From the IMG/VR virus record IMGVR_UViG_3300017756_000016, positions 1-48,032 of that record: a stretch of DNA of 48,032 nt, one strand, 5' to 3'. Positions 4,524 to 47,858 of the stretch are shown piece by piece. The notes under the pieces were generated by a model that saw only the letters and a list, made by a program, of their open reading frames with translations, made no database searches and was not told the origin of the DNA. This DNA comes from a virus. How positions within the stretch are numbered: position 1 is the first letter of the stretch; every line of letters starts with the position of its first letter. Position numbers and translations under genes: made by a program.

Positions 4524-4531
4524 TATTTATA
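4524..4531 (-). promoter_or_regulatory. T4-type late promoter upstream of gp8
   Basis: The minus strand reads CTATAAATA, an exact T4 late-promoter -10 box (TATAAATA), 23 nt from the gp8 ATG. It lies in the only sizeable gap (4502-4535) of the left structural block. T4 late promoters need no -35 element and are read by RNA polymerase carrying gp55. Confidence 0.75.
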
Positions 4532-8112: not shown

Positions 8113-8120
8113 TATTTATG
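8113..8120 (-). promoter_or_regulatory. Candidate T4-type late promoter (CATAAATA)
   Basis: CATAAATA on the minus strand lies 25 nt upstream of the ATG at 8088. It differs from the T4 late consensus only at the first base and has the same spacing as the gp8 promoter. It overlaps the stop codon of the preceding gene. Confidence 0.45.
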
Positions 8121-33342: not shown

Positions 33343-33439
33343 GATCTGATACTTGTTTTAAGTATTTATCAGCTCTAGGATCAGTTACTAAACATCTGCC
33401 CGATCGGATGAACCAATCTGCTTGATCAACCTTAACCAT
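33296..33439 (-). CDS. 47-aa protein upstream of and overlapping gp25
   Basis: The sequence begins MVKVDQADWFIRSGRCLVTD and continues PRADKYLKQVSDRG. The start at 33439 is chosen because a clean GGAG lies 6 nt before it; an in-frame ATG 48 nt further upstream lacks this. A candidate promoter TATAAAAG lies 27 nt upstream. The last 47 nt overlap gp25 in another frame. No family was recognised; the SGR---DPRADKYL motif would be worth using as a query. Confidence 0.6.
   Translation of the reverse strand: MVKVDQADWFIRSGRCLVTDPRADKYLKQVSDRGVQVQSRQESKQTV
33363..33370 (-). promoter_or_regulatory. Candidate T4-type late promoter for gp25
   Basis: GATAAATA on the minus strand lies 21 nt before the GTG start of gp25. 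It differs from the T4 late consensus at one base and has the spacing seen at gp8 and at the 557-aa gene. Confidence 0.5.
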
Positions 33440-34375: not shown

Positions 34376-37300
34376 TAGTAACTTCCTAGATCACATTCGT
34401 CGAAATAAGGGTTCCCAAATCTATCTAGTGCCCTATCCATAAGAATAGTTGCACCTGTTAGGTAGTTTGTATAGTTCAATCTACCTCCAATTGGAGCAAG
34501 TTGGATGTTATTCTCGTTATCTGAGATAGCACCTGGGTCAAAAGAGATGGTTGAGTAGATCACATTTCTTAATGCAGCACAGTTAGTGAAGTAATTACTG
34601 AATGGAGCACTAGTACAAAGGTTACTTGCCCAGTTATCATTCGCATTTCCACTACTATCCCAAGAGTTATAGGTATCCAACACACCATCTACCACAAAAT
34701 TATGCCAACAGGGTTCTGGGAACTTGCCTCCAGAGCAACTTGCGAGTTGAATTGTGTTGTATGTAAGGGAGTATGTAGTCTGAGCACCCGTATTTGGGTC
34801 AGTAGTAGTGTGTGTAGAGGTGCCTGTACCATAAGAACTGAAGTTTCCATTACCTAACCACGTCTCCAACTGCTCTAATTCTGTACCATAGAAGTCAAAA
34901 GTGTTCTCATCACCCGAATCTGGGACGAATGTGTACTGACCTTTACCAGTTTCATAGCATTTACCCTCTACATTTGACCCTCTCTTACAAGAATGCGACT
35001 TTCCTTTGCCTGGGGCACCCACAAAACGCGGTGCAGTAAGAGTTGGTTTGGGTAAATCCTTCAAAAAGTCAATAAAATCCGTGTTTATTGCCTCCCCTTT
35101 CTTCATTACATTACCTTCTACCTCTAAAGTCACCTTAACTTGTGCGGATTCTCTATCAGAACCACAGTATTTGTACGGAAGGAACCCAAAAGTACGTGAA
35201 ACACCGTCCGTACCAATCTTTTCTTCGGGGCAAGGGATGTCAAAGAAGCGTCTGACGCCGTAAAGTGTGCTTTGTGCTACTTCAAGACAGTCTCCACCAA
35301 GTATTCCTGTCATACCATTGTTCATTCTTTGGTTAATTGTTCCAGATGCAGACTGACTTTCAGCAGTAACAGCAGCAAGTCTCTCTTCTTCCTTCTCAAG
35401 AGCAGGATTCCATTTCTTTGACTCTCTGTATATTTCACTTGGATTGATGTAATTTGAAATATTGTGCCAATCACTACCGATACCTGGGTCTAAACATTTG
35501 ATTGGTAGTACGTCTTTACAGAACTTTGTCTTTTCAGTATCACTTTTTTCGTGTGCTTTGAGATAAGATGTCACATATGTGGATGTGACGGGTTCATCAA
35601 ACTCCTGAACTGCATCAGCATACGCTCTTTTACCATCATCAAACAGTGAAGTGGTCGAAACAGGCACTTCATTACCGTTTTCGTCTGTCATAGAGGTTTG
35701 AATATCGACCATTGGCATATCTGGGTCATCCCACGTCTTATCAAACTGCTTTGTTGCCTCCTTCATCCCTGCTCCAATGAAATCGTCTTGTCTAGACTCG
35801 GTTTCCCTCTCTACAACGTAAACAATAACCTTATCACCAGGTGTATATCCTTTTCCCTTCTCAGTAATTGTTGCAGTCTTAACAGCACCAATCTCATTCA
35901 GTGTAATACGTGCTTCTGCTTGTTTGATCGATTTTGTGAACCCTGCATCAGTCAAAAACTTGTCATTCTTGATTTTACGGGTCAATTTACGTGCAGACTT
36001 CGTACTTTGATCAAATTCATCACTTGATTCAATGTTCACATTGTATTTTGCGAGTTTCGAGTCTTGAAATGCCTCAACAGTGTTCTCTGCGGTATCTGTG
36101 AACCCCTCTTCCTTCAATTCATCGGGAATAGACACAATTACATCAGGATTAACGTACCCCCGACCAGCATTTATGATCTCAATGGACCCAACACGCCCTT
36201 TTTTGTCAATAGTTGCAGTTAAAATTGCTTCATCGAGTGTTCTTCTAGGTATTAACGCTCTATTATCAATTTCTACCTTGAAATATGACAATTTCTTCGG
36301 AAATTCATAGACTCCGAAGAAAGCACCGCGATCTTTGATGCCATAACCCGCTAAAACAAGTGCAGTTGCACCATCATTGGCGGTAATGGTCTCATTGTAA
36401 CTAAAAGTTTGCCCATTTCTTGCTTTTCTGTGTCTTAAACGCATATAACCGCACTTAAGTTCGTCTCCAAAGTACCTAACTTGACTAATACGCCATCCTT
36501 TGACGTTCTCACCCACTAAGAAGGCACCTTCAGAAGACGTATAACGGAAAAAGATCATCTCATCATCAGTTCCACAAGTCCAGAACGAATCAGCAATACC
36601 ATCACCATTAGGTGCAGATACAGTTAAACGTGTCTTCTGTGTTTTCCAAGCATCCTCTCTAATCTTATAGTAGATACTCTTATATGTGATAGTGGGTTCT
36701 TCCTGCTGATCCCTAGCACCACTAATACAAGGAGCATCCGTAGTAGTGAAGTTAATACCAAATACAGGTCCCGCAAATGGATACTCAGTGTTATACAGAT
36801 AGTACACGAACTGCCCCTCAAAAGCATCGTGGAATCCTAAGAACCTAGGCAGTGCACATTTGACTGCTCCGTTCTTACCAAAGTACCATTCAAAGTTTGC
36901 ATTACTAGATGCAATGTCTGCTGCATTAGGATCACCCCATCCTTGTTGTGCAGGAGTCAGTGTTTCGTCTTCATATCTCCTTCTACTGTAACTAGTAGTG
37001 TAATTATACCAACCAGTACGGTCTACTTCACCAGTATCGACTGGACCACCAGTATCTACAACAGTTTTCTTCAGTCTAGGGGCAAATGCATTCATTACAT
37101 ACCCATAGATCCCTTGGTAGATATACTCTTCTTGAAAAGGTTGAGGAGAATTAGGAACTCCTGCCACCTGCTCGATATTAACCTCTTGTGCAGGGTTTAT
37201 AGTATAAAAATCATCGACATCACCATTACTATTCTTCTTATAGTGATACAAAGGTAAAAGAGTTTCACCTGGATTCAGAGTATCCGATGGAGCACTATTA

Positions 37301-39790: not shown

Positions 39791-39950
39791 AACGTTTCAG
39801 TGTTCCACATAGGGATGATAAAATTTCATCACACTTATTATAGCATTCGCCTTGGTGTGATGTGAGTCTACTGTCTTGATAATACCGTACTGCATCGTAA
39901 ATAACACGTTTGTGTTCGATACTTAACTTTGTCCAGTCTGGTTTGTTCAT
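39756..39950 (-). CDS. Small hypothetical protein
   Basis: A 64-aa protein (MNKPDWTKLSIEHKRVIYDA...) with three Cys residues. The ATG at 39950 is preferred over an adjacent GTG at 39953 because it overlaps the upstream TGA (TGATG), suggesting coupled translation. Not recognised. It overlaps the next gene by 35 nt. Confidence 0.62.
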   Translation of the reverse strand: MNKPDWTKLSIEHKRVIYDAVRYYQDSRLTSHQGECYNKCDEILSSLCGTLKRYEVATNTDCDI

Positions 39951-40117
39951 CACGGTTCAGTAAATTTTTTTAAGATGATCTTATCATCCTCCATTTCATA
40001 TTCTAGTTCATCACCATAGTACCAACCTGCTTCCTCTAGTAAAGTGTCAGGTAAAGTAACATATAGTTCGCCTGTATCGTCGTCCTCATCTATTGTAAGG
40101 ATATATCTATGAGACAT
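39950..40117 (-). CDS. 55-aa acidic protein resembling AbrB/MazE-like small folds
   Basis: The frame begins MSHRYILTIDEDDDTGELYV and continues TLPDTLLEEAGWYYGDELEY, then EDDKIILKKF. The order 'strand - LP--LLeeaGw--GDeleye--dd-iiLkK' is the pattern of swapped-hairpin AbrB/MazE-type domains, here with an acidic N-terminal strand pair. Its start overlaps the 3' end of the NlpC/P60-like gene by 11 nt. A regulatory or antitoxin-like role would be a guess; no toxin partner is evident. Confidence 0.65.
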   Translation of the reverse strand: MSHRYILTIDEDDDTGELYVTLPDTLLEEAGWYYGDELEYEMEDDKIILKKFTEP

Positions 40118-41290: not shown

Positions 41291-41635
41291 TTATGAAATA
41301 GGTTGTTTATCTAGTCTAAGGTTAGAGACGTGATCATTTAATTTGTTCCCATCTATGTGTAACACATTGGTAACACTTGAGTGTAGGGATATAAAAGCAA
41401 GTGCGGTAAGTTTAGCAACTCTCCTTACTACTGTCTTACCATCTTGTCTTAGTGTTACTCTTCTATAACCATTTTCGTTAAGGTGAATTTTCAATTTCTT
41501 CCACTTTCCCCACTTAGTAGAATAAATGGATCCGAGGTTACTAACATAATAGTCTTCATAGTTAGGGATGGGTTTATATAGTGTTCCCTCGCTATCTCTA
41601 TAAGTGTTGTCATCAATTTTTGTAAAGGGATTCAT
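41291..41635 (-). CDS. NUMOD4/HNH endonuclease-like protein, catalytic His altered
   Basis: The 114-aa protein has a NUMOD4 motif at about residues 20-39 (YKPIPNYEDYYVSNLGSIYS) and an HNH-like part at about 70-107 (VRRVAKLTALAF, then VLHIDGNKLNDHVSNLR). In the family the first motif normally reads vHrLva-aF; here the His is Ala (VAKLTALAF), while H93, N100 and N105 remain. Loss of this His could make the protein inactive or only DNA-binding. It starts directly after the stop of the 2OG-oxygenase-like gene. It is much shorter than the 294-aa HNH gene and not a duplicate of it. Confidence 0.75.
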   Translation of the reverse strand: MNPFTKIDDNTYRDSEGTLYKPIPNYEDYYVSNLGSIYSTKWGKWKKLKIHLNENGYRRVTLRQDGKTVVRRVAKLTALAFISLHSSVTNVLHIDGNKLNDHVSNLRLDKQPIS

Positions 41636-42280
41636 TTAAGGTGCTACATTAAAGGATAGAGTAATACGGTTATGTTCTCCATTGATTTCATATCCGTGAG
41701 TTAGGTTACTGGGGAAAATGATAATATCTCCTTCAGTAGTGGGTACGTTTGCATCTAATAGATTAAACGCGGTTAGACCATTTTGCTTACATTGCATAAT
41801 TGGATAATAGGATGACTGTGTAATACGTTTAAACTTAAGAGGCGAATGCTTTTGTGGGTCATAGTTAATGAAATAGCATCCTGAGTATAAACAATTAGAA
41901 AACTCGTGAGGTGCGTATAGGGCGTTTTGTGATGCGACTTCAATATGTGAATCGATTAATTCCATACTTGATAAGTCATAATTAAGTGATTGTTCATTAA
42001 CCTGCTTAACTGCATCTAAAATGGTCTCTCTTACGTCCTTAAGTGTTGGATGGTCTAGGATGTTATTTTTCCCGATTTGCGTCACACCGTGGCATATATC
42101 GCTATTAGGGGATTGAAATAGGTCATCATTTGTGCAACTATTAATATAACTCGTAATTGCAAGTTTATCCCTTTCGTGGTTTTTATTGGTATAATTACCT
42201 ACAGGGGACATAAACAACCCATAGACGTTAGTCTGTGCGATGGATTCGAAATCGTCCGATAGTTCTTTAGGATTATGCAT
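41636..42280 (-). CDS. Putative 2OG-Fe(II) oxygenase (TIGR02466-like)
   Basis: The 214-aa protein ends in the pattern of the phage/bacterial 2OG-Fe(II) family TIGR02466: SNCLYSGCYFINYDPQKHSP (family: sgvYYl--p), a proline/Gly loop, then EGDIIIFPSNLTHGYEINGE with H195 as the distal iron ligand and R205 in HNRITLSFNV as the 2OG-binding Arg. The proximal ligands are less clear; H125 in APHEFSN is the best candidate. It is unrelated in sequence to the 189-aa oxygenase. It is the first gene left of the terminator and has its own TATAAT 30 nt upstream. Confidence 0.7.
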   Translation of the reverse strand: MHNPKELSDDFESIAQTNVYGLFMSPVGNYTNKNHERDKLAITSYINSCTNDDLFQSPNSDICHGVTQIGKNNILDHPTLKDVRETILDAVKQVNEQSLNYDLSSMELIDSHIEVASQNALYAPHEFSNCLYSGCYFINYDPQKHSPLKFKRITQSSYYPIMQCKQNGLTAFNLLDANVPTTEGDIIIFPSNLTHGYEINGEHNRITLSFNVAP

Positions 42281-42309: not shown

Positions 42310-42315
42310 ATTATA
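42310..42315 (-). promoter_or_regulatory. TATAAT -10 box overlapping the terminator region
   Basis: TATAAT on the minus strand lies 30 nt before the ATG at 42280. Its expected start site (about 42303) falls within the first arm of the terminator hairpin, so transcripts from this promoter would lack part of the stem. Confidence 0.5.
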
Positions 42316-42342
42316 GTGTATATAGTGAATTAAGTCAACTCC

Positions 42343-42657
42343 TTAGAACGCTAACTCCATACCGTTAGCGAAATCTTCAGTCAAGTTCTTATAACCTACG
42401 AACCACTCAAATTGCTTTTGAAAAACTCTAGTGCCATAAGAGAATTCATCAAGAATAGCGTTTAGACGTGATTTAGTTGTATTTGACTGCCAACCGCCAT
42501 CGAACAATAAAACAGAATTATTTGTAACTGTCGCGATGTGATTGCCGTGAAGATAAACGTTTGCTTCGCCGTTAGCGTGTGAAACAGTAGTATTTGCTGA
42601 ACTGAAGTTGCTTCCGCTTCTGATTGCTGAGTTCATTTGAGTTTCGATCTTACGCAT
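42343..42657 (-). CDS. Conserved-type phage protein with GGW-SNTTKSRLNA motif
   Basis: The 104-aa protein contains VSHANGEANVYLHGNHIATV and then DGGWQSNTTKSRLNAILDEF. The GW-TnTTKsRlNAlL motif is one I recall from many phage hypothetical proteins; no function is established. The beta hairpin followed by a basic helix would suit nucleic-acid contact. It has an AGGAG 12 nt upstream and the palindrome-TATAAT module 33 nt upstream. It is the last gene before the terminator. Confidence 0.75.
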   Translation of the reverse strand: MRKIETQMNSAIRSGSNFSSANTTVSHANGEANVYLHGNHIATVTNNSVLLFDGGWQSNTTKSRLNAILDEFSYGTRVFQKQFEWFVGYKNLTEDFANGMELAF

Positions 42658-42689: not shown

Positions 42690-42747
42690 ATTATAGAGGA
42701 TTGAGACGCGATTGCTAGGGGTGTTGTGCCACTAGTCAAACTGTCTA
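42690..42747 (-). promoter_or_regulatory. Palindrome-TATAAT promoter module 1
   Basis: TATAAT at 42690-42695; imperfect palindrome at 42726-42747 (plus reading GTGCCA-N10-TGTCTA, loop CTAGTCAAAC), 30 bp apart. The leader contains ATAAGCAACA. The right arm overlaps the stop codon of the upstream gene. No -35 hexamer. Confidence 0.75.
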
Positions 42748-42867
42748 CTCCTCCCTTACTTCAAAGAGTTCATATGTTATCATATCAATCAGATCTACGT
42801 CAAGATCTTCTTTAAGTAATCCTCTGAGATTTTTTGAACTTAGTGCTTTAATTTCTTGATATGTCAT
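42745..42867 (-). CDS. 40-aa hypothetical protein
   Basis: The frame reads MTYQEIKALSSKNLRGLLKE then DLDVDLIDMITYELFEVREE. Its ATG overlaps the upstream stop (TAATG). It ends in the palindrome of module 1. Helical and acidic, not recognised. Confidence 0.6.
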   Translation of the reverse strand: MTYQEIKALSSKNLRGLLKEDLDVDLIDMITYELFEVREE

Positions 42868-43190
42868 TACTTGCCTACTCCATAGTCTGCTGCCGCTTGC
42901 TCAAGTTGGAATAAACTTCCCGCTCTGTATCCATCCTTATATGATGATTCGATCTTTTCATCGATCGCTTCAAAGTCATCTTCTGAGAGACCGCTCTCTT
43001 CAAAAATAAGTGCATTATCTGAAAACTTTCTCAACTCGTCAAGAACCTCATCATATGAAAACTGGCGGTTGATAGCATTCTCTCCAAATGCTAACTCATA
43101 AACCTCTTCAATAAATTCGTTTTTTGTCATTTGCTTTTGTATAGTAAGATTGTTCAATGTAAGATTAAGATCGGTGAAAATGTCGTGCAT
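42867..43190 (-). CDS. Acidic helical hypothetical protein
   Basis: 107 residues, strongly acidic and helical (FSYDEVLDELRKFSDNALIF; SGLSEDDFEAIDEKIESSYK). It begins 5 nt after the upstream stop; MTKNEF at residue 21 is a possible alternative start. No family recognised. Confidence 0.68.
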   Translation of the reverse strand: MHDIFTDLNLTLNNLTIQKQMTKNEFIEEVYELAFGENAINRQFSYDEVLDELRKFSDNALIFEESGLSEDDFEAIDEKIESSYKDGYRAGSLFQLEQAAADYGVGK

Positions 43191-43195
43191 AGTGC

Positions 43196-43390
43196 TTAGA
43201 ATGGATTTGTCCAGTTGTATGCTTGCCAGTCGGTAACCATACCATCCTGATTGAGGCAGTCAACAAAATTGTTCCAACTCTCACGCTTCGCTATGGTGTC
43301 ACCTCTAAGAGATCTATCCTGAGCAACTGCAACTTTCCAGTTGTAACGAAATTGATCTAGAACCTGTGCTTTAGTTGCTCTCCAAGTCAT
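43196..43390 (-). CDS. 64-aa hypothetical protein
   Basis: MTWRATKAQVLDQFRYNWKV... is rich in Trp (five) and helical. A clear AGGAG precedes the ATG, and the palindrome-TATAAT module lies 33 nt upstream. First gene of a three-gene unit with the next two downstream. Not recognised. Confidence 0.75.
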   Translation of the reverse strand: MTWRATKAQVLDQFRYNWKVAVAQDRSLRGDTIAKRESWNNFVDCLNQDGMVTDWQAYNWTNPF

Positions 43391-43422
43391 TTGAGTTTTT
43401 CTCCTTTGTTGCTTATGTACTT

Positions 43423-43480
43423 ATTATAACGGATGAGAACCGCCTGTGTAGGGTAGGTGTGCCAGTTCGTGAACTGTCCT
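43423..43480 (-). promoter_or_regulatory. Palindrome-TATAAT promoter module 2
   Basis: TATAAT at 43423-43428; GTGCCA-N10-TGTCCT at 43459-43480, 30 bp apart, with an inner palindrome GTTCGTGAAC. Leader ATAAGCAACAAAGGAG leads to the ATG at 43390. Confidence 0.75.
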
Positions 43481-43511
43481 AGAAAGTGGTCAGTCTTAAC
43501 TGTCTCATCTA

Positions 43512-43664
43512 TCATTTATTAAGGGGACTATTGAAATATGCTTTATTAACTGTGTAAACCGTGAAAATCGCGACGATGATACCAAAGAACCCTAACCAAA
43601 GAATTGGGGAATGGGGGAAATCGTAAAATGGAACTGTTTTGTCGAGAACTGTTGAAAATAGCAT
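43512..43664 (-). CDS. 50-aa single-span membrane protein
   Basis: The frame reads MLFSTVLDKTVPFYDFPHSP followed by a transmembrane segment ILWLGFFGIIVAIFTVYTV (about residues 21-39) and a short basic tail. It starts one nt after the stop of the 25-aa peptide. No family was recognised. Candidates are an inner-membrane modulator of the host or a lysis-related peptide. Confidence 0.62.
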   Translation of the reverse strand: MLFSTVLDKTVPFYDFPHSPILWLGFFGIIVAIFTVYTVNKAYFNSPLNK

Positions 43665-43665
43665 C

Positions 43666-43743
43666 TTAGTAATTAGGATTGTAATAGTTGAGAAATAGCA
43701 CTAATATAAGTGCGATGAGTAAAATTGAAATTGCTGTTATCAT
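43666..43743 (-). CDS. 25-aa hydrophobic membrane peptide
   Basis: MITAISILLIALILVLFLNY plus five residues is one transmembrane helix. Its ATG overlaps the upstream stop (ATGA), and it is followed at once by a second membrane protein. Such short peptides are easily missed; the coupling arrangement is the main support. Confidence 0.5.
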   Translation of the reverse strand: MITAISILLIALILVLFLNYYNPNY

Positions 43744-43937
43744 TCAGATTCATATATTGAAACTGAAGCAAGTTCAGTATTTGCAGATTCTTGAGATTCC
43801 ATCACATAAGTTTCATATGATGTATCTGAGAAGAGTTGATAATATAGATCATTCATAAGACCAAATTCAAAACTCGTGCCCGCGTGCTCTTCAGTCACTC
43901 CCTCGTAGCATTTGAGAATTTCATCGTATTGTGTCAT
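43740..43937 (-). CDS. 65-aa acidic hypothetical protein
   Basis: MTQYDEILKCYEGVTEEHAG continues with many Glu, Asp, Ser and Tyr. AGAGGAAAAG precedes the ATG, and module 3 lies 25 nt upstream. It is co-transcribed with the two membrane peptides. Not recognised. Confidence 0.72.
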   Translation of the reverse strand: MTQYDEILKCYEGVTEEHAGTSFEFGLMNDLYYQLFSDTSYETYVMESQESANTELASVSIYESE

Positions 43938-43961
43938 CTTTTCCTCTGTGTGTATGTAGTT

Positions 43962-44023
43962 ATTATAAGGGATGGATTTGAGTTTTGTGTGAGGTGTTGT
44001 GCCAGTAGTGGAAGTGGCACAAC
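43962..44023 (-). promoter_or_regulatory. Palindrome-TATAAT promoter module 3 (best palindrome)
   Basis: TATAAT at 43962-43967. The palindrome here is perfect over nine bases per arm: GTTGTGCCA (43996-44004), 10-nt loop, TGGCACAAC (44015-44023). Its core GTGCCA begins 31 bp upstream of the -10. Confidence 0.8.
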
Positions 44024-44035
44024 ATAGGTTGACAT

Positions 44036-44461
44036 TTAGTAAACGATCTGACTATTGTCAATGATTAGGATTATAAATCCTAGTTTGTTCAAGATATTCT
44101 TATATCTTGCGATTTGAGTATTCTTGCGATATTCCCAAAGATCATTACCAAATGCGATATAAGAAACTTTTGCTGTTTTGGTCTTATCAATGTGTATCGC
44201 TCTGTAATCATCTTGACTAATGTCATCGTGGGCAACATCGTAAACGATCTTAGCAACTACTTCGCCGCCGATGATTAGATTTGAAAATTGTGAACTCTCG
44301 TGCTTATGGTGAACTGAAACACCATTTTTCCAGTCTCCAGATCCATAAGTGTTGATAGCATTCAAAACTAGTGACTGATATACATCTAGTTTGACCTCTG
44401 GGTCTAGACCTATTCTAAGTGTGTCTTTTTTGATGAGTTCTTTGTATTCTGTAGGTGTCAT
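44036..44461 (-). CDS. 141-aa hypothetical protein
   Basis: The protein (MTPTEYKELIKKDTLRIGLD...) is mixed alpha/beta, with VSVHHKHESSQFSNLIIGGE in the centre and a hydrophobic C-terminus (LGFIILIIDNSQIVY). It has no recognisable motif and no signal peptide. Its own promoter module 4 lies 24 nt upstream. It ends just before the palindrome of module 3. Confidence 0.75.
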   Translation of the reverse strand: MTPTEYKELIKKDTLRIGLDPEVKLDVYQSLVLNAINTYGSGDWKNGVSVHHKHESSQFSNLIIGGEVVAKIVYDVAHDDISQDDYRAIHIDKTKTAKVSYIAFGNDLWEYRKNTQIARYKNILNKLGFIILIIDNSQIVY

Positions 44462-44484
44462 AGTTGTTTGTTGCTTATACTAAT

Positions 44485-44543
44485 ATTATAGAGGATGTAT
44501 ATCCAATAATAAACAACGTGTGTGCCACTAATACAACTGGCAC
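44485..44543 (-). promoter_or_regulatory. Palindrome-TATAAT promoter module 4
   Basis: TATAAT at 44485-44490; perfect GTGCCA-N10-TGGCAC at 44522-44543, 31 bp apart. The last base of the palindrome is the end of the upstream gene's stop codon. Leader ATAAGCAACA. Confidence 0.78.
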
Positions 44544-44755
44544 TAGAATCTTTCTAAAACTTTGCATTTTGTGTAATCATATACAGGGTGAAATAATGTT
44601 TCATCGTTACAGATTTCGAACTGTGGTCTACAATAGCGTCCCCATCTTCGAATAACTGTCCCAATAATTCGCTGACCTATTGGGTCAGTATATGCAACAA
44701 TGTCACCGATACTAATCTCTGTGAATGTGTCATAAGTGTTGTAATCTTTGATCAT
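44543..44755 (-). CDS. 70-aa small beta protein
   Basis: MIKDYNTYDTFTEISIGDIV continues AYTDPIGQRIIGTVIRRWGR. The pattern 'i-iGDiVay-dp-gq-iiGtVirrw' fits a small SH3/KOW-like beta barrel, often a nucleic-acid or protein binder. The start overlaps the upstream stop (ATGA). Identity is unknown. Confidence 0.68.
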   Translation of the reverse strand: MIKDYNTYDTFTEISIGDIVAYTDPIGQRIIGTVIRRWGRYCRPQFEICNDETLFHPVYDYTKCKVLERF

Positions 44756-44982
44756 TGTGCAACCGCTCTTGTCTCTGTGATTATGTCTCTTACTCTCTCG
44801 CGATCGAGTGAGTCACCATCACCGAACTCAATATTAGTGTTTGATGCACATAAATCGAGGTATCTGAGTATCGCGATTGCGATCTCTCCAGTTGTTAATC
44901 CATCTATAGGATATAATACATCGGGATGATATGGTGCATAAAATGATTCGATGTAATCTAGAAATTCTTGAAAGTTGTGCAT
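44752..44982 (-). CDS. 76-aa hypothetical protein
   Basis: MHNFQEFLDYIESFYAPYHP, then a hydrophobic helix TGEIAIAILRYLDLCASNT and a charged C-terminus. It is packed between neighbours with 3-4 nt spacing or overlap. Not recognised. Confidence 0.68.
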   Translation of the reverse strand: MHNFQEFLDYIESFYAPYHPDVLYPIDGLTTGEIAIAILRYLDLCASNTNIEFGDGDSLDRERVRDIITETRAVAQ

Positions 44983-44985
44983 TGA

Positions 44986-45180
44986 TTAAACTCCTTTAAC
45001 TCTTTTTTGTAGGTAGGTAGATTGTGCTTGACATACATTGTCAACTAGGTTATCAAATGTTTGAGCATCCCAACCCTTTTGCTCTGCAATGTCTAACTCG
45101 TATGCTGTCATTACAAGATCATAGAGTAACTCGTATTGACCGTTTGAGACTTCGATATTCATTCCTTTGATTGATTTCAT
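44986..45180 (-). CDS. 64-aa helical hypothetical protein
   Basis: MKSIKGMNIEVSNGQYELLY continues with DLVMTAYELDIAEQKGWDAQ. AAAGGA precedes the ATG and module 5 lies 29 nt upstream. First gene of a unit with the next two downstream genes. Not recognised. Confidence 0.72.
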   Translation of the reverse strand: MKSIKGMNIEVSNGQYELLYDLVMTAYELDIAEQKGWDAQTFDNLVDNVCQAQSTYLQKRVKGV

Positions 45181-45208
45181 TTTAGTTTCCTTTGTTGCTT
45201 ATGTCCTT

Positions 45209-45266
45209 ATTATAGAGGGTTAGTAGCGCTCTGGGATGCTTTTGTAGTCACTTTGTGAACTGTCAC
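45209..45266 (-). promoter_or_regulatory. Palindrome-TATAAT promoter module 5 (inside coding sequence)
   Basis: TATAAT at 45209-45214; degenerate palindrome TAGTCA-N10-TGTCAC at 45245-45266, 30 bp apart. The palindrome lies within the 3' end of the upstream gene, which may explain its weaker left arm. Leader ATAAGCAACAAAGGA. Confidence 0.6.
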
Positions 45267-45414
45267 AATGCTCCTTGACAAGATACTCGCCTGTCATTAT
45301 TCTTTCAAATACTGCGGTCTGATCATCAGTTAGATCAAAATCCATATCTCTGAGAGTATCCCAAAGTTTCGTCATTTGATATGACTCGTCGAATGACATA
45401 GGTATATTAAGCAT
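45220..45414 (-). CDS. 64-aa acidic hypothetical protein
   Basis: MLNIPMSFDESYQMTKLWDT continues helical and acidic. It overlaps the upstream gene by 8 nt. Its last codons contain the module 5 palindrome. Not recognised. Confidence 0.65.
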   Translation of the reverse strand: MLNIPMSFDESYQMTKLWDTLRDMDFDLTDDQTAVFERIMTGEYLVKEHCDSSQSDYKSIPERY

Positions 45415-45631
45415 CTGGGTTATTAACTCCTGAGAATACTCTTAATTCAGTTGCATAGTTAACTAGTTGATCAAATCCCTCTTCATTTACCTTTATCTTA
45501 TTCAAGAGCATATAACCTGCTTCCTCACTTAGAAACCTCATAATGGTCTCAAATTGCTCTAACGCTTCAAAACTAAATCCAGTCTCTGCTTCAACTTGTG
45601 AGCGATCTGGGAATGTGTTGTTTTCAATCAT
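45407..45631 (-). CDS. 74-aa acidic helical hypothetical protein
   Basis: MIENNTFPDRSQVEAETGFS, then FEALEQFETIMRFLSEEAGY. Strongly acidic. Module 6 lies 26 nt upstream with leader ATAAGCAACACAGAAAC. Not recognised. Confidence 0.7.
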   Translation of the reverse strand: MIENNTFPDRSQVEAETGFSFEALEQFETIMRFLSEEAGYMLLNKIKVNEEGFDQLVNYATELRVFSGVNNPDA

Positions 45632-45656
45632 TTGTTTCTGTGTTGCTTATGTTTAT

Positions 45657-45714
45657 ATTATAGTCATTATATGGTGCATATAATGTAATGATGTGCCAGT
45701 TATATTATTGGCAC
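45657..45714 (-). promoter_or_regulatory. Palindrome-TATAAT promoter module 6
   Basis: TATAAT at 45657-45662; perfect GTGCCA-N10-TGGCAC at 45693-45714, 30 bp apart. A second inverted repeat (ATTATATG/CATATAAT) fills 45666-45684 in the spacer. The upstream gene's stop codon lies inside the palindrome loop. Confidence 0.78.
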
Positions 45715-45863
45715 TCATCCTCAAAACGCTCGCGTGCGATATACTCGCAATGCTCAACAAGTGCTTCCTCGCTCATCATTTTGTCGAGACCTGTGGATTT
45801 CATTAGTTCTAACTCATCTTCGTAGAATTCGATGAGCATATCTTCGTGATGTGAAACTGACAT
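45705..45863 (-). CDS. 52-aa acidic hypothetical protein
   Basis: The frame reads MSVSHHEDMLIEFYEDELEL then MKSTGLDKMMSEEALVEHCE. It starts directly after the upstream stop (TAA-ATG). Strongly acidic and helical. Not recognised. Confidence 0.65.
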   Translation of the reverse strand: MSVSHHEDMLIEFYEDELELMKSTGLDKMMSEEALVEHCEYIARERFEDECQ

Positions 45864-46028
45864 TTAAACCACCTCCGCTAGATTGTCGAACCAGTCAGAA
45901 GTTTCCTTCTGTGGGTGTTGCTTTTTATATAAGTCTTCGACTGAGCAACCCTTACGTCTTGCAACTTGTCTTGCTATCATTGCTTCCCATCTTAGGAATG
46001 ACTCATAACTTCTGTTTGTTCTGCACAT
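45864..46028 (-). CDS. 54-aa basic/helical hypothetical protein
   Basis: MCRTNRSYESFLRWEAMIAR continues QVARRKGCSVEDLYKKQHPQ. The N-terminal half is basic and helical, the C-terminal half acidic. Module 7 lies 24 nt upstream. Not recognised; DNA binding is possible from charge. Confidence 0.68.
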   Translation of the reverse strand: MCRTNRSYESFLRWEAMIARQVARRKGCSVEDLYKKQHPQKETSDWFDNLAEVV

Positions 46029-46051
46029 AATGTTTGTTTGTTTATACTATT

Positions 46052-46109
46052 ATTATAGTAAATGTGTGGTGCATATGGTAACATTATGTGCCACTAGTTG
46101 AACTGTCAC
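46052..46109 (-). promoter_or_regulatory. Palindrome-TATAAT promoter module 7
   Basis: TATAAT at 46052-46057; GTGCCA-N10-TGTCAC at 46088-46109, 30 bp apart, loop CTAGTTGAAC. The spacer shares TGGTGCATAT with module 6. The right arm covers the upstream gene's stop codon. Confidence 0.75.
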
Positions 46110-46339
46110 ACAATACGATCCATAAAGATCCATTCATATGTACCATCTTCAGGGTCACGTCCATCAACAACGAACTCTTCATAGATCGCATCAGCATCGT
46201 CAAAACGATTTGCTTCGATATGTCTCGTGACCTGATTCATATAGTGCTCGCCGAGAAGATCGATTGAAGTTTGCATTAGTTCGTTAAATTCCTGATTTTG
46301 GTCGTATTCGTGGATTTCGTTATTTAATTCGTGTTCCAT
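46106..46339 (-). CDS. 77-aa acidic hypothetical protein
   Basis: MEHELNNEIHEYDQNQEFNE continues helical and strongly acidic, ending GTYEWIFMDRIV. It overlaps the nuclease-like gene upstream by 20 nt, so the two are probably co-expressed. An acidic partner overlapping a possible nuclease could be an inhibitor; this is speculation. Not recognised. Confidence 0.68.
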   Translation of the reverse strand: MEHELNNEIHEYDQNQEFNELMQTSIDLLGEHYMNQVTRHIEANRFDDADAIYEEFVVDGRDPEDGTYEWIFMDRIV

Positions 46340-46826
46340 AGGTTTGAATCGCTTTGTTGGGGATAGTGTAACCTAGTCGTGGGTCTTTTCTGATCTTATC
46401 AGAATGAAATTGCTTTTTAAGACTAGGTAGTAGCAAGTTCAGTACATCGTCACCTGACATTTGCCAGACTTCGACAACTTGACCATTTTGGTATCTTGCA
46501 AAGAAGTGATCTTTGTACTTGCCAATTTTCTCTTCTTTGAGATACTTGAGTTGATCTTCCCAAGTATCTTGAACTGAAATACCGTTGTAGGTAGCAGTTA
46601 GTTTCTTACCTATAGTAGATTTATATTCAACAGGATTCCCATCCTGATCAAATGCATCAGCACCTGAGTAATCATCAGCAACGTTGTGCCCTAGGATGCC
46701 TGCCAAGTGAATCTCACGTGAGCGTGCATAACTGAATGGGTCTCCCCATCCGTGTTGGTCGCAAAGAGCATACATCTGCTCAAAGAGTTGCTGATATTGT
46801 TGTTCGGGTGTTGATGTCACTTGCAT
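46320..46826 (-). CDS. Possible PD-(D/E)XK nuclease-like protein
   Basis: The 168-aa protein starts at ATG 46826 (MQVTSTPEQQ); a longer frame to 46898 is rejected because it would run through the TATAAT box at 46849-46854. Residues 34-70 show a PD-(D/E)XK-like order: a helix with E38 (ARSREIHLAGILG), then D57 and D60 in SGADAFDQDG, then E67-Y-K69 in NPVEYKSTIG. The C-terminal half is mixed alpha/beta, with VVEVWQMSGDDVLNLL. Phage early nucleases of this fold degrade host DNA or process replication intermediates. Family membership rests on motif spacing only. It could be an inactive or unrelated fold. Confidence 0.7.
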   Translation of the reverse strand: MQVTSTPEQQYQQLFEQMYALCDQHGWGDPFSYARSREIHLAGILGHNVADDYSGADAFDQDGNPVEYKSTIGKKLTATYNGISVQDTWEDQLKYLKEEKIGKYKDHFFARYQNGQVVEVWQMSGDDVLNLLLPSLKKQFHSDKIRKDPRLGYTIPNKAIQTYGTRIK

Positions 46827-46848
46827 AGTTCTTTTGTTCGATACCTCT

Positions 46849-46906
46849 ATTATAAGGGGAAACCCATCCTGTGTGTGGATGGGTGGGACACTAGTCAAAC
46901 TGTCAC
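46849..46906 (-). promoter_or_regulatory. Palindrome-TATAAT promoter module 8
   Basis: TATAAT at 46849-46854; GGGACA-N10-TGTCAC at 46885-46906, 30 bp apart, loop CTAGTCAAAC identical to that of module 1. It extends to GTGGGACA/TGTCACAC with one mismatch. The upstream stop codon begins two bases beyond it. Confidence 0.75.
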
Positions 46907-46907
46907 A

Positions 46908-47141
46908 CTAGCAGGATGCAGGTAAGTAGTTTTGTGGTTCAGTTAAGAAGTCAGTCACCTGATAACCAATATCGAGACGTGCGTTGATTGTCTCAGTCAT
47001 TTCTCGTTTGTTCATCAAACGCATTGACATAGCATTAACCTCGCCCCACTTGTTTTTCAAACTGAGAGTATAAACGAATTTGTCACTCAAAATGCTATGG
47101 GGACGGAACTCAACTGTCATCGATCCTGCTGTGAGTTGCAT
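46908..47141 (-). CDS. 77-aa hypothetical protein
   Basis: MQLTAGSMTVEFRPHSILSD then strands and a helix with MSMRLMNKREMTETINARLD. AGGAG precedes the ATG and module 9 lies 26 nt upstream, inside the 3' end of the upstream gene. Not recognised. Confidence 0.72.
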   Translation of the reverse strand: MQLTAGSMTVEFRPHSILSDKFVYTLSLKNKWGEVNAMSMRLMNKREMTETINARLDIGYQVTDFLTEPQNYLPASC

Positions 47142-47162
47142 TTGGTCTCCTGTGCTTTACCT

Positions 47163-47486
47163 CTATATTATAGAGGATGGATCAAGGTCTAGTGGTTCGG
47201 GTGTGACAGTTTGTGGTTTGGCACGAAGTGTCATCTGCTGCCAGTCATCCCACTCTGTTCCATAGTTAGATTCCACTAGTGGTTTGATCTCTTGCATCAA
47301 TCCTACTATTGCGTCTTTACCATAATAATCGTGTTCGATAACATCGTGACCAGTACAACTTGATCCCCACTCTGTTACATCGCTGTCAATTCTTGCAACT
47401 AAACCGCGTGCATAATAGTGAAGCATACCTAGTTCTCTTCTGGACAATTTGATTGTAAATTCTTTTTTATTGTTAGTTTGATTCAT
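47163..47486 (-). CDS. 107-aa hypothetical protein
   Basis: MNQTNNKKEFTIKLSRRELG continues MLHYYARGLVARIDSDVTEW and GHDVIEHDYYGKDAIVGLMQ. The N-terminal 'fti-lsrrEl-ml-yy' strand-helix is seen in small phage proteins, but I cannot name a family. The ATG overlaps the upstream stop (TAATG). Its final ~60 nt contain module 9, so its 3' end doubles as a promoter. Confidence 0.72.
   Translation of the reverse strand: MNQTNNKKEFTIKLSRRELGMLHYYARGLVARIDSDVTEWGSSCTGHDVIEHDYYGKDAIVGLMQEIKPLVESNYGTEWDDWQQMTLRAKPQTVTPEPLDLDPSSII
47167..47224 (-). promoter_or_regulatory. Palindrome-TATAAT promoter module 9 (inside coding sequence)
   Basis: TATAAT at 47167-47172; GTGACA-N10-TGGCAC at 47203-47224, 30 bp apart, within the coding sequence of the 107-aa gene. 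The leader is AGGTAAAGCACAGGAG, a diverged version of the common one. Confidence 0.65.
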
Positions 47487-47721: not shown

Positions 47722-47803
47722 CGGTTGTGTGAGGTGTGGAAGAGGTTCGAATTGAAAGCAATTAGTGAATGCTACCCTTGCCTTCCACATTTATAATATA
47801 CCA

Positions 47804-47828
47804 ATAAAAAAGACCCCTGTGGGGTCTT
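47804..47828 (-). terminator. Rho-independent terminator of the rightmost gene
   Basis: An 8-bp perfect stem AAGACCCC/GGGGTCTT with a 3-nt loop is followed on the minus strand by a T-run (47804-47811 overlaps the stem end). It ends transcription of the gene at 47859-48032. Confidence 0.85.
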
Positions 47829-47858
47829 AGTAGTACAGTTATTTAAGTGTCACATAGT

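Follow-up and report, generated by a model that had tools for sequence, protein, structure and literature searches.

What controls a cluster of small phage genes that are each preceded by the same palindrome and the same TATAAT box? The question is raised by a 48-kb virus record from IMG/VR (IMGVR_UViG_3300017756_000016, positions 1 to 48,032), the whole of which was analysed and is referred to below as the window. A first-pass annotation made from the letters alone had picked out nine copies of a palindrome–TATAAT promoter module. Each of the nine -10 boxes and each of the nine palindromes was found exactly where it had placed it; the set occupies 42690 to 47224 of the minus strand (whole-window numbering; Table 1).

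A dyad locked to the -10 box

In all nine cases the order is the same: a dyad of 22-24 bp, a spacer of 30-31 bp, TATAAT, and then 22-32 nt up to the ATG. The spacer length given by the annotation is confirmed: it is 31 bp in the two modules whose dyads start at 43999 and 44522 and 30 bp in the other seven, and all nine lack a TTGACA-like -35, as it had said. Its finer sequence claims hold for part of the set. The pattern GTGNCA-N10-TGNCAC is exact in five of the nine, with one mismatch at 46885 and at least two at 42726, 43459 and 45245. The leader ATAAGCAACA occurs in five (dyads 42726, 43459, 44522, 45245 and 45693) and not in the other four, while the loop CTAGTNNAAC, described as frequent, occurs in three (42726, 46088 and 46885) and not in the remaining six. 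The dyad is better drawn as a 24-mer, consisting of the 22-mer plus a flanking T and A.

The nine modules are real and the distance from dyad to -10 box is locked. None of the dinucleotide shuffles of the window equalled the observed 9 matches (one mismatch allowed), which places the real window above every control of the kind that the first-pass annotation had proposed. A composite position weight matrix (PWM) covering dyad and promoter, trained on IMG/VR copies and used with a threshold of 18 bits, returned 13 window matches above that threshold against 0 in shuffles, some dyads scoring on both strands. The spacing claim rests on two further tests, a histogram of spacing-selected loci having been set aside. 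A pattern search of IMG/VR with a spacing of 30-31 returned at least 120 stretches, compared with 22 for a spacing of 40-41. In eight isolate genomes, dyads were picked regardless of any promoter and the distances to TANNNT were counted from the 24-mer; 63 cases fell at a gap of 29 or 30, whereas other distances averaged 3.4, and 27 cases at that gap were TATAAT proper.

The consensus of 99 metagenomic copies is the 24-bp dyad TGTGNCANTTNNNNAANTGNCACA, with a preferred gap of 29 from the 24-mer (equal to 30 from the 22-mer), TGCCC often directly before TATAAT, and an A-rich leader after it. The -35 region is low in information, and no more than 9 of the 99 copies have TTGA at a distance that would suit a -35 element. 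An intrinsic terminator occupies 11 of 177 spacers between operator and -10 box (shuffle mean 0.18). The -35 sequence is thus unconstrained, and in these cases the upstream gene's terminator lies within the spacer itself. Terminators or hairpins inside the 30-bp spacer are also seen individually in five other loci (L018, L009, L032, L088 and L097) and in the window at 46849-46906, where the gap of module 2 contains the hairpin ACCCATCC/GGATGGGT, and at 47795-47854, where the spacer of a weak tenth module is taken up by the terminator AAGACCCC-ACA-GGGGTCTT plus a T run.

One alternative explanation is that the dyads themselves act in RNA, as terminators or processing sites that end upstream transcripts, rather than as DNA operators. 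These are indeed inverted repeats between small genes, with real terminators beside some of them, but we give this explanation almost no credence: the distance to the -10 box is fixed, no T-run lies behind the dyad, and the dyads at 47203 and 45245 lie within coding sequence (the former, together with its -10 box, in the upstream ORF (open reading frame) 47163-47486, the latter in ORF 45220-45414). Dyad positions 7 and 16 are also under-paired, being Watson-Crick complementary in 55 sites against 86.5 expected by independence (n=203), a test that is weakened by the clustering of similar sites. A preference for G/G or C/C at these two positions (p 2e-5) falls to p 0.34 once similar sites are clustered, and is not claimed.

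Some modules, at L084 723-781 (-), L085 2208-2266 (-), G002 (L105) 37033-37090 (+) and P-SSM2 66356-66614 (-), are directed away from the adjacent genes, towards DNA in which no ORF is evident or annotated. Modules of this kind might drive small RNAs.

Distribution among phages and their hosts

Judging by its sequence relationships, the window comes from a larger genome, that of a T4-like cyanomyovirus of the Kyanoviridae. Its baseplate protein is 50-56% identical to those of P-RSM6, S-WAM1 and P-TIM40, its nearest DNA matches are P-TIM40 and P-RSM1, and ORF 42343-42657 carries the Kyano_Gp96 domain (PF23790). Downstream of the module cluster come gp25, gp6 and a giant structural ORF, an arrangement shared with Syn9 gp55-gp101 and P-TIM40 genes 55-99.

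A motif search of related phage genomes, suggested in the annotation, recovered clear modules in seven Kyanoviridae isolates (P-TIM40, Syn9, S-PM2, P-SSM2, P-HM2, P-RSM1 and S-RSM4), and in Syn9, P-TIM40, P-SSM2, P-HM2 and P-RSM1 they sit in small-gene clusters. The module is degenerate or rare in P-RSM6 (weak), S-WAM1 (variant) and S-CREM1 (two matches above 18 bits). No module above 18 bits was found in ACG-2014d or the pelagiphage HTVC008M, and none at all in T4, P-SSP7, Syn5 or the scanned part of P-SS2; it is absent from the T7-like cyanophages tested. In S-WAM1 (44108-46093) and in P-SSM2 (58535 and 67742), AACCTGCACA forms one half of a variant operator, a hint from sequence that the operator may drift between lineages. 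S-TIM5, a myovirus outside the Kyanoviridae, has five weak look-alikes at 163774-170888. The T4-like capsid protein gp23 was found in 7 of the 16 IMG/VR records searched, including all those longer than 95 kb.

Among the hosts, the exact dyad occurs in 2 of 300 Cyanobiaceae genomes, at one site each and in both cases lacking a suitably spaced -10, and six host genomes contain no dyad even with one mismatch allowed. As the module is present in most of the related cyanophages tested and essentially not in their hosts, it is probably a switch for early genes, whether on or off. This distribution bears directly on a second explanation, in which the phages borrow a transcription factor of their hosts, one conserved across the marine picocyanobacteria, as proposed for PhoB and NtcA. 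Early genes require a factor present at time zero, which a host protein would provide, and cyanophages have predicted sites of the Pho-box and NtcA types (PMC3037559). We nonetheless consider a borrowed host factor improbable: the near-absence of the dyad from the 300 Cyanobiaceae genomes and the six hosts disfavours a host regulon, the site is neither GTA-N8-TAC nor a Pho box, and the operator differs between phages of one host group.

A putative dimeric activator and the search for it

On balance, we favour the reading that the modules are early promoters of the Kyanoviridae, at which a dimer bound to the operator would activate sigma-70 RNA polymerase and replace the -35 contact. A dimeric DNA-binding protein would sit on the quasi-palindrome, which covers roughly -65 to -42 and is centred near -53 if +1 lies ~7 nt after the -10; on that basis the 24-mer agrees with the position of about -43 to -64 put forward in the annotation. 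Bound there, the dimer would help the host sigma-70 RNA polymerase to start at a strong -10 without a -35, standing in for the missing contact in the manner of P2 Ogr and P4 Delta, whose sites also lie upstream of -35. A single site at one spacing, with no -35 and with any -35 sequence tolerated, is what would be expected of a dimer that contacts RNA polymerase. All operator-bearing units, nine or ten in the window, would switch jointly as one regulon of small genes, mostly of no known function and probably concerned with host takeover. The binding protein probably comes from the phage, since the hosts lack such sites and the operator appears to drift between lineages, and it would be either packaged in the virion or produced at the very start of infection. 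We infer the early timing, the binding of a protein, activation in preference to repression and the nature of the binder.

The main rival, which we regard as unlikely, is that the dyad is a repressor operator: host RNA polymerase would use the -10 promoters immediately, and a later phage protein on the dyad would shut the early genes off. A dimer-type dyad at a fixed placement is compatible with this, and early genes need switching off, the early transcripts of P-HM2 peaking first (0.5 h; PMC5082946). Repressors, however, more often overlap the -10 or -35 and tolerate varied spacing, whereas the dyad keeps to a single distance and, at -42 to -65, lies upstream of the core contacts made by RNA polymerase, and the missing -35 suggests a promoter that needs help.

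Several observations weigh against activation by a dimer. A repressor would leave a similar footprint, and ACG-2014d and S-CREM1, both Kyanoviridae, manage almost without the operator. Pfam was run on 83 proteins of the early clusters and on additional core and window proteins, which together form part of the full protein set. It revealed no helix-turn-helix or ribbon-helix-helix domain in ~100 early or core proteins, nor was an Ogr/Delta zinc-finger domain found among the early-cluster and core proteins scanned. Phyletic profiling for genes that accompany strong modules and are missing from ACG-2014d yielded no regulator candidate. The regulon controlled by a dimeric factor that the annotation had proposed is upheld as to the single promoter-linked regulon, whose promoter element is found far beyond the window, and the dimer-type geometry of the site, but domain scans and phyletic profiling found no factor to go with it.

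The sole DNA-binding fold from the Pfam scans is that of an AbrB/MazE-like protein of ~55 amino acids (aa; PF04014; Table 1), present in most Kyanoviridae tested and with an isoelectric point of 4.0-4.6. We rejected it as the regulator: it is very acidic, it is present in ACG-2014d, where no module exceeds 18 bits, and it went undetected in module-rich P-HM2. The DNA-contact arginines of Bacillus subtilis AbrB appear replaced by acidic residues in the phage protein, and we speculate that it might antagonise a host AbrB-type regulator.

A more specific form of the activator reading is offered tentatively. An activator specific to the phages, entering the cell with the genome and belonging to a DNA-binding type not yet recognised, may bind as a dimer near -53 and substitute there for the -35 contact. 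If so, much of an ocean-abundant virus family would control its host-takeover genes by that activator, the -35 region would be freed for the terminator of the upstream gene to give very compact insulated promoters, and the operator would drift between lineages together with its regulator.

The window also carries other promoter types (Table 1). It contains only three ATAAATA late boxes (10.6 expected by chance). The late boxes at structural genes and the sigma-70-like promoter at an oxygenase gene set the small genes apart as a separate class, and these three promoter types fit the early, middle and late expression classes reported for such phages (PMC5082946). Elsewhere in the window, a single ORF of 6926 aa at 10056-30836 (-) is placed like the giant structural Syn9 gp101 and P-TIM40 gene 99, and the HNH endonuclease ORF 41291-41635 (-) has its best phage matches in Enterococcus and other non-cyanophages. 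Rfam and tRNA scans of the window gave no matches.

Table 1. Coordinates of the modules, other promoter elements and AbrB/MazE-like genes. Gaps (bp) are counted from the 22-mer.
Feature	Genome	Position	Strand	Elements	Downstream gene or remark
Module 1	Window	47167..47224	-	dyad 47203-47224, gap 30, TATAAT 47167-47172	ORF 46908-47141 (77 aa)
Module 2	Window	46849..46906	-	dyad 46885-46906, gap 30, TATAAT 46849-46854	ORF 46320-46826 (168 aa)
Module 3	Window	46052..46109	-	dyad 46088-46109, gap 30, TATAAT 46052-46057	ORFs 45864-46028, 45705-45863
Module 4	Window	45657..45714	-	dyad 45693-45714, gap 30, TATAAT 45657-45662	ORFs 45407-45631, 45220-45414; 25 nt between -10 and ATG
Module 5	Window	45209..45266	-	dyad 45245-45266, gap 30, TATAAT 45209-45214	ORFs 44986-45180, 44752-44982, 44543-44755
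Module 6	Window	44485..44543	-	dyad 44522-44543, gap 31, TATAAT 44485-44490	ORF 44036-44461 (141 aa)
Module 7	Window	43962..44020	-	dyad 43999-44020, gap 31, TATAAT 43962-43967	ORFs 43740-43937, 43512-43664
Module 8	Window	43423..43480	-	dyad 43459-43480, gap 30, TATAAT 43423-43428	ORFs 43196-43390, 42867-43190, 42745-42867
Module 9	Window	42690..42747	-	dyad 42726-42747, gap 30, TATAAT 42690-42695	ORF 42343-42657 (Kyanoviridae Gp96, PF23790)
Weak tenth module	Window	~47795-47854	-	dyad 47831-47854, TATATT ~47795-47800	15.8 bits, composite PWM
Host-like sigma-70 promoter	Window	42310-42338	-	TTGACT-N17-TATAAT	upstream of 2OG-Fe(II) oxygenase ORF 41636-42280
Late box	Window	33363-33369	-	ATAAATA	just upstream of large or structural ORF
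Late box	Window	8113-8119	-	ATAAATA	just upstream of large or structural ORF
Late box	Window	4524-4530	-	ATAAATA	just upstream of large or structural ORF
AbrB/MazE-like protein	Window	39950-40117	-		PF04014
AbrB/MazE-like protein	P-TIM40	57539-57703			PF04014
AbrB/MazE-like protein	Syn9	53843-54016			PF04014
AbrB/MazE-like protein	P-SSM2	~69216-69410			PF04014

Relation to known systems

Doron et al. 2016 are said to have described a "novel regulatory element" for the early genes of Syn9, with similar results in P-TIM40. Syn9 and P-TIM40 both carry the module in the same small-gene cluster, and it is thus probably the early-gene element of that work; no description of the motif was found in the papers examined that cite Doron et al. 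2016. If this identity holds, the window is probably a further case of an already known element. The present analysis itself established the geometry, how widely the module is spread, its absence from hosts and the nesting of terminators, results that may overlap with those of Doron et al. 2016. A 24-bp operator with exact geometry allows a probable early regulon to be listed from sequence in cultured and uncultured cyanophages, and the operator could be used as bait for isolating the regulator.

In T4 itself, the early -35 and the MotA box resemble neither the dyad nor its position, and the T4 genome lacks the module, in agreement with the view of the first-pass annotation that the layout is unlike T4 early or middle promoters; the T4 likeness lies in the ATAAATA late boxes upstream of structural genes, which are also found in the window. 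Early transcription in T4-like cyanophages is puzzling, given that cyanomyoviruses have no homologues of Alt, ModA, ModB, MotA or AsiA (reviewed in PMC2984593), and the module is relevant to that puzzle. Cyanophage promoters with NtcA or Pho-box sites are alike in having regulator sites upstream of phage -10s (PMC3037559), but those sites read GTA-N8-TAC and CTTA-N7-CTTA, unlike TGTGNCANTTNNNNAANTGNCACA, and the module dyad is essentially absent from hosts. The late promoters of P2 (Ogr), P4 (Delta) and 186 (B) share with the module a dyad upstream of a -35-less promoter and, on the reading favoured here, the use of one regulator for several phage operons. The P2 Ogr site is centred near -55. 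Ogr is a zinc-finger activator whose site is TGT-N12-ACA (PMC3931495), whereas the module consensus has TGT-N18-ACA, and Ogr serves late genes, whereas the genes behind the module are probably early.

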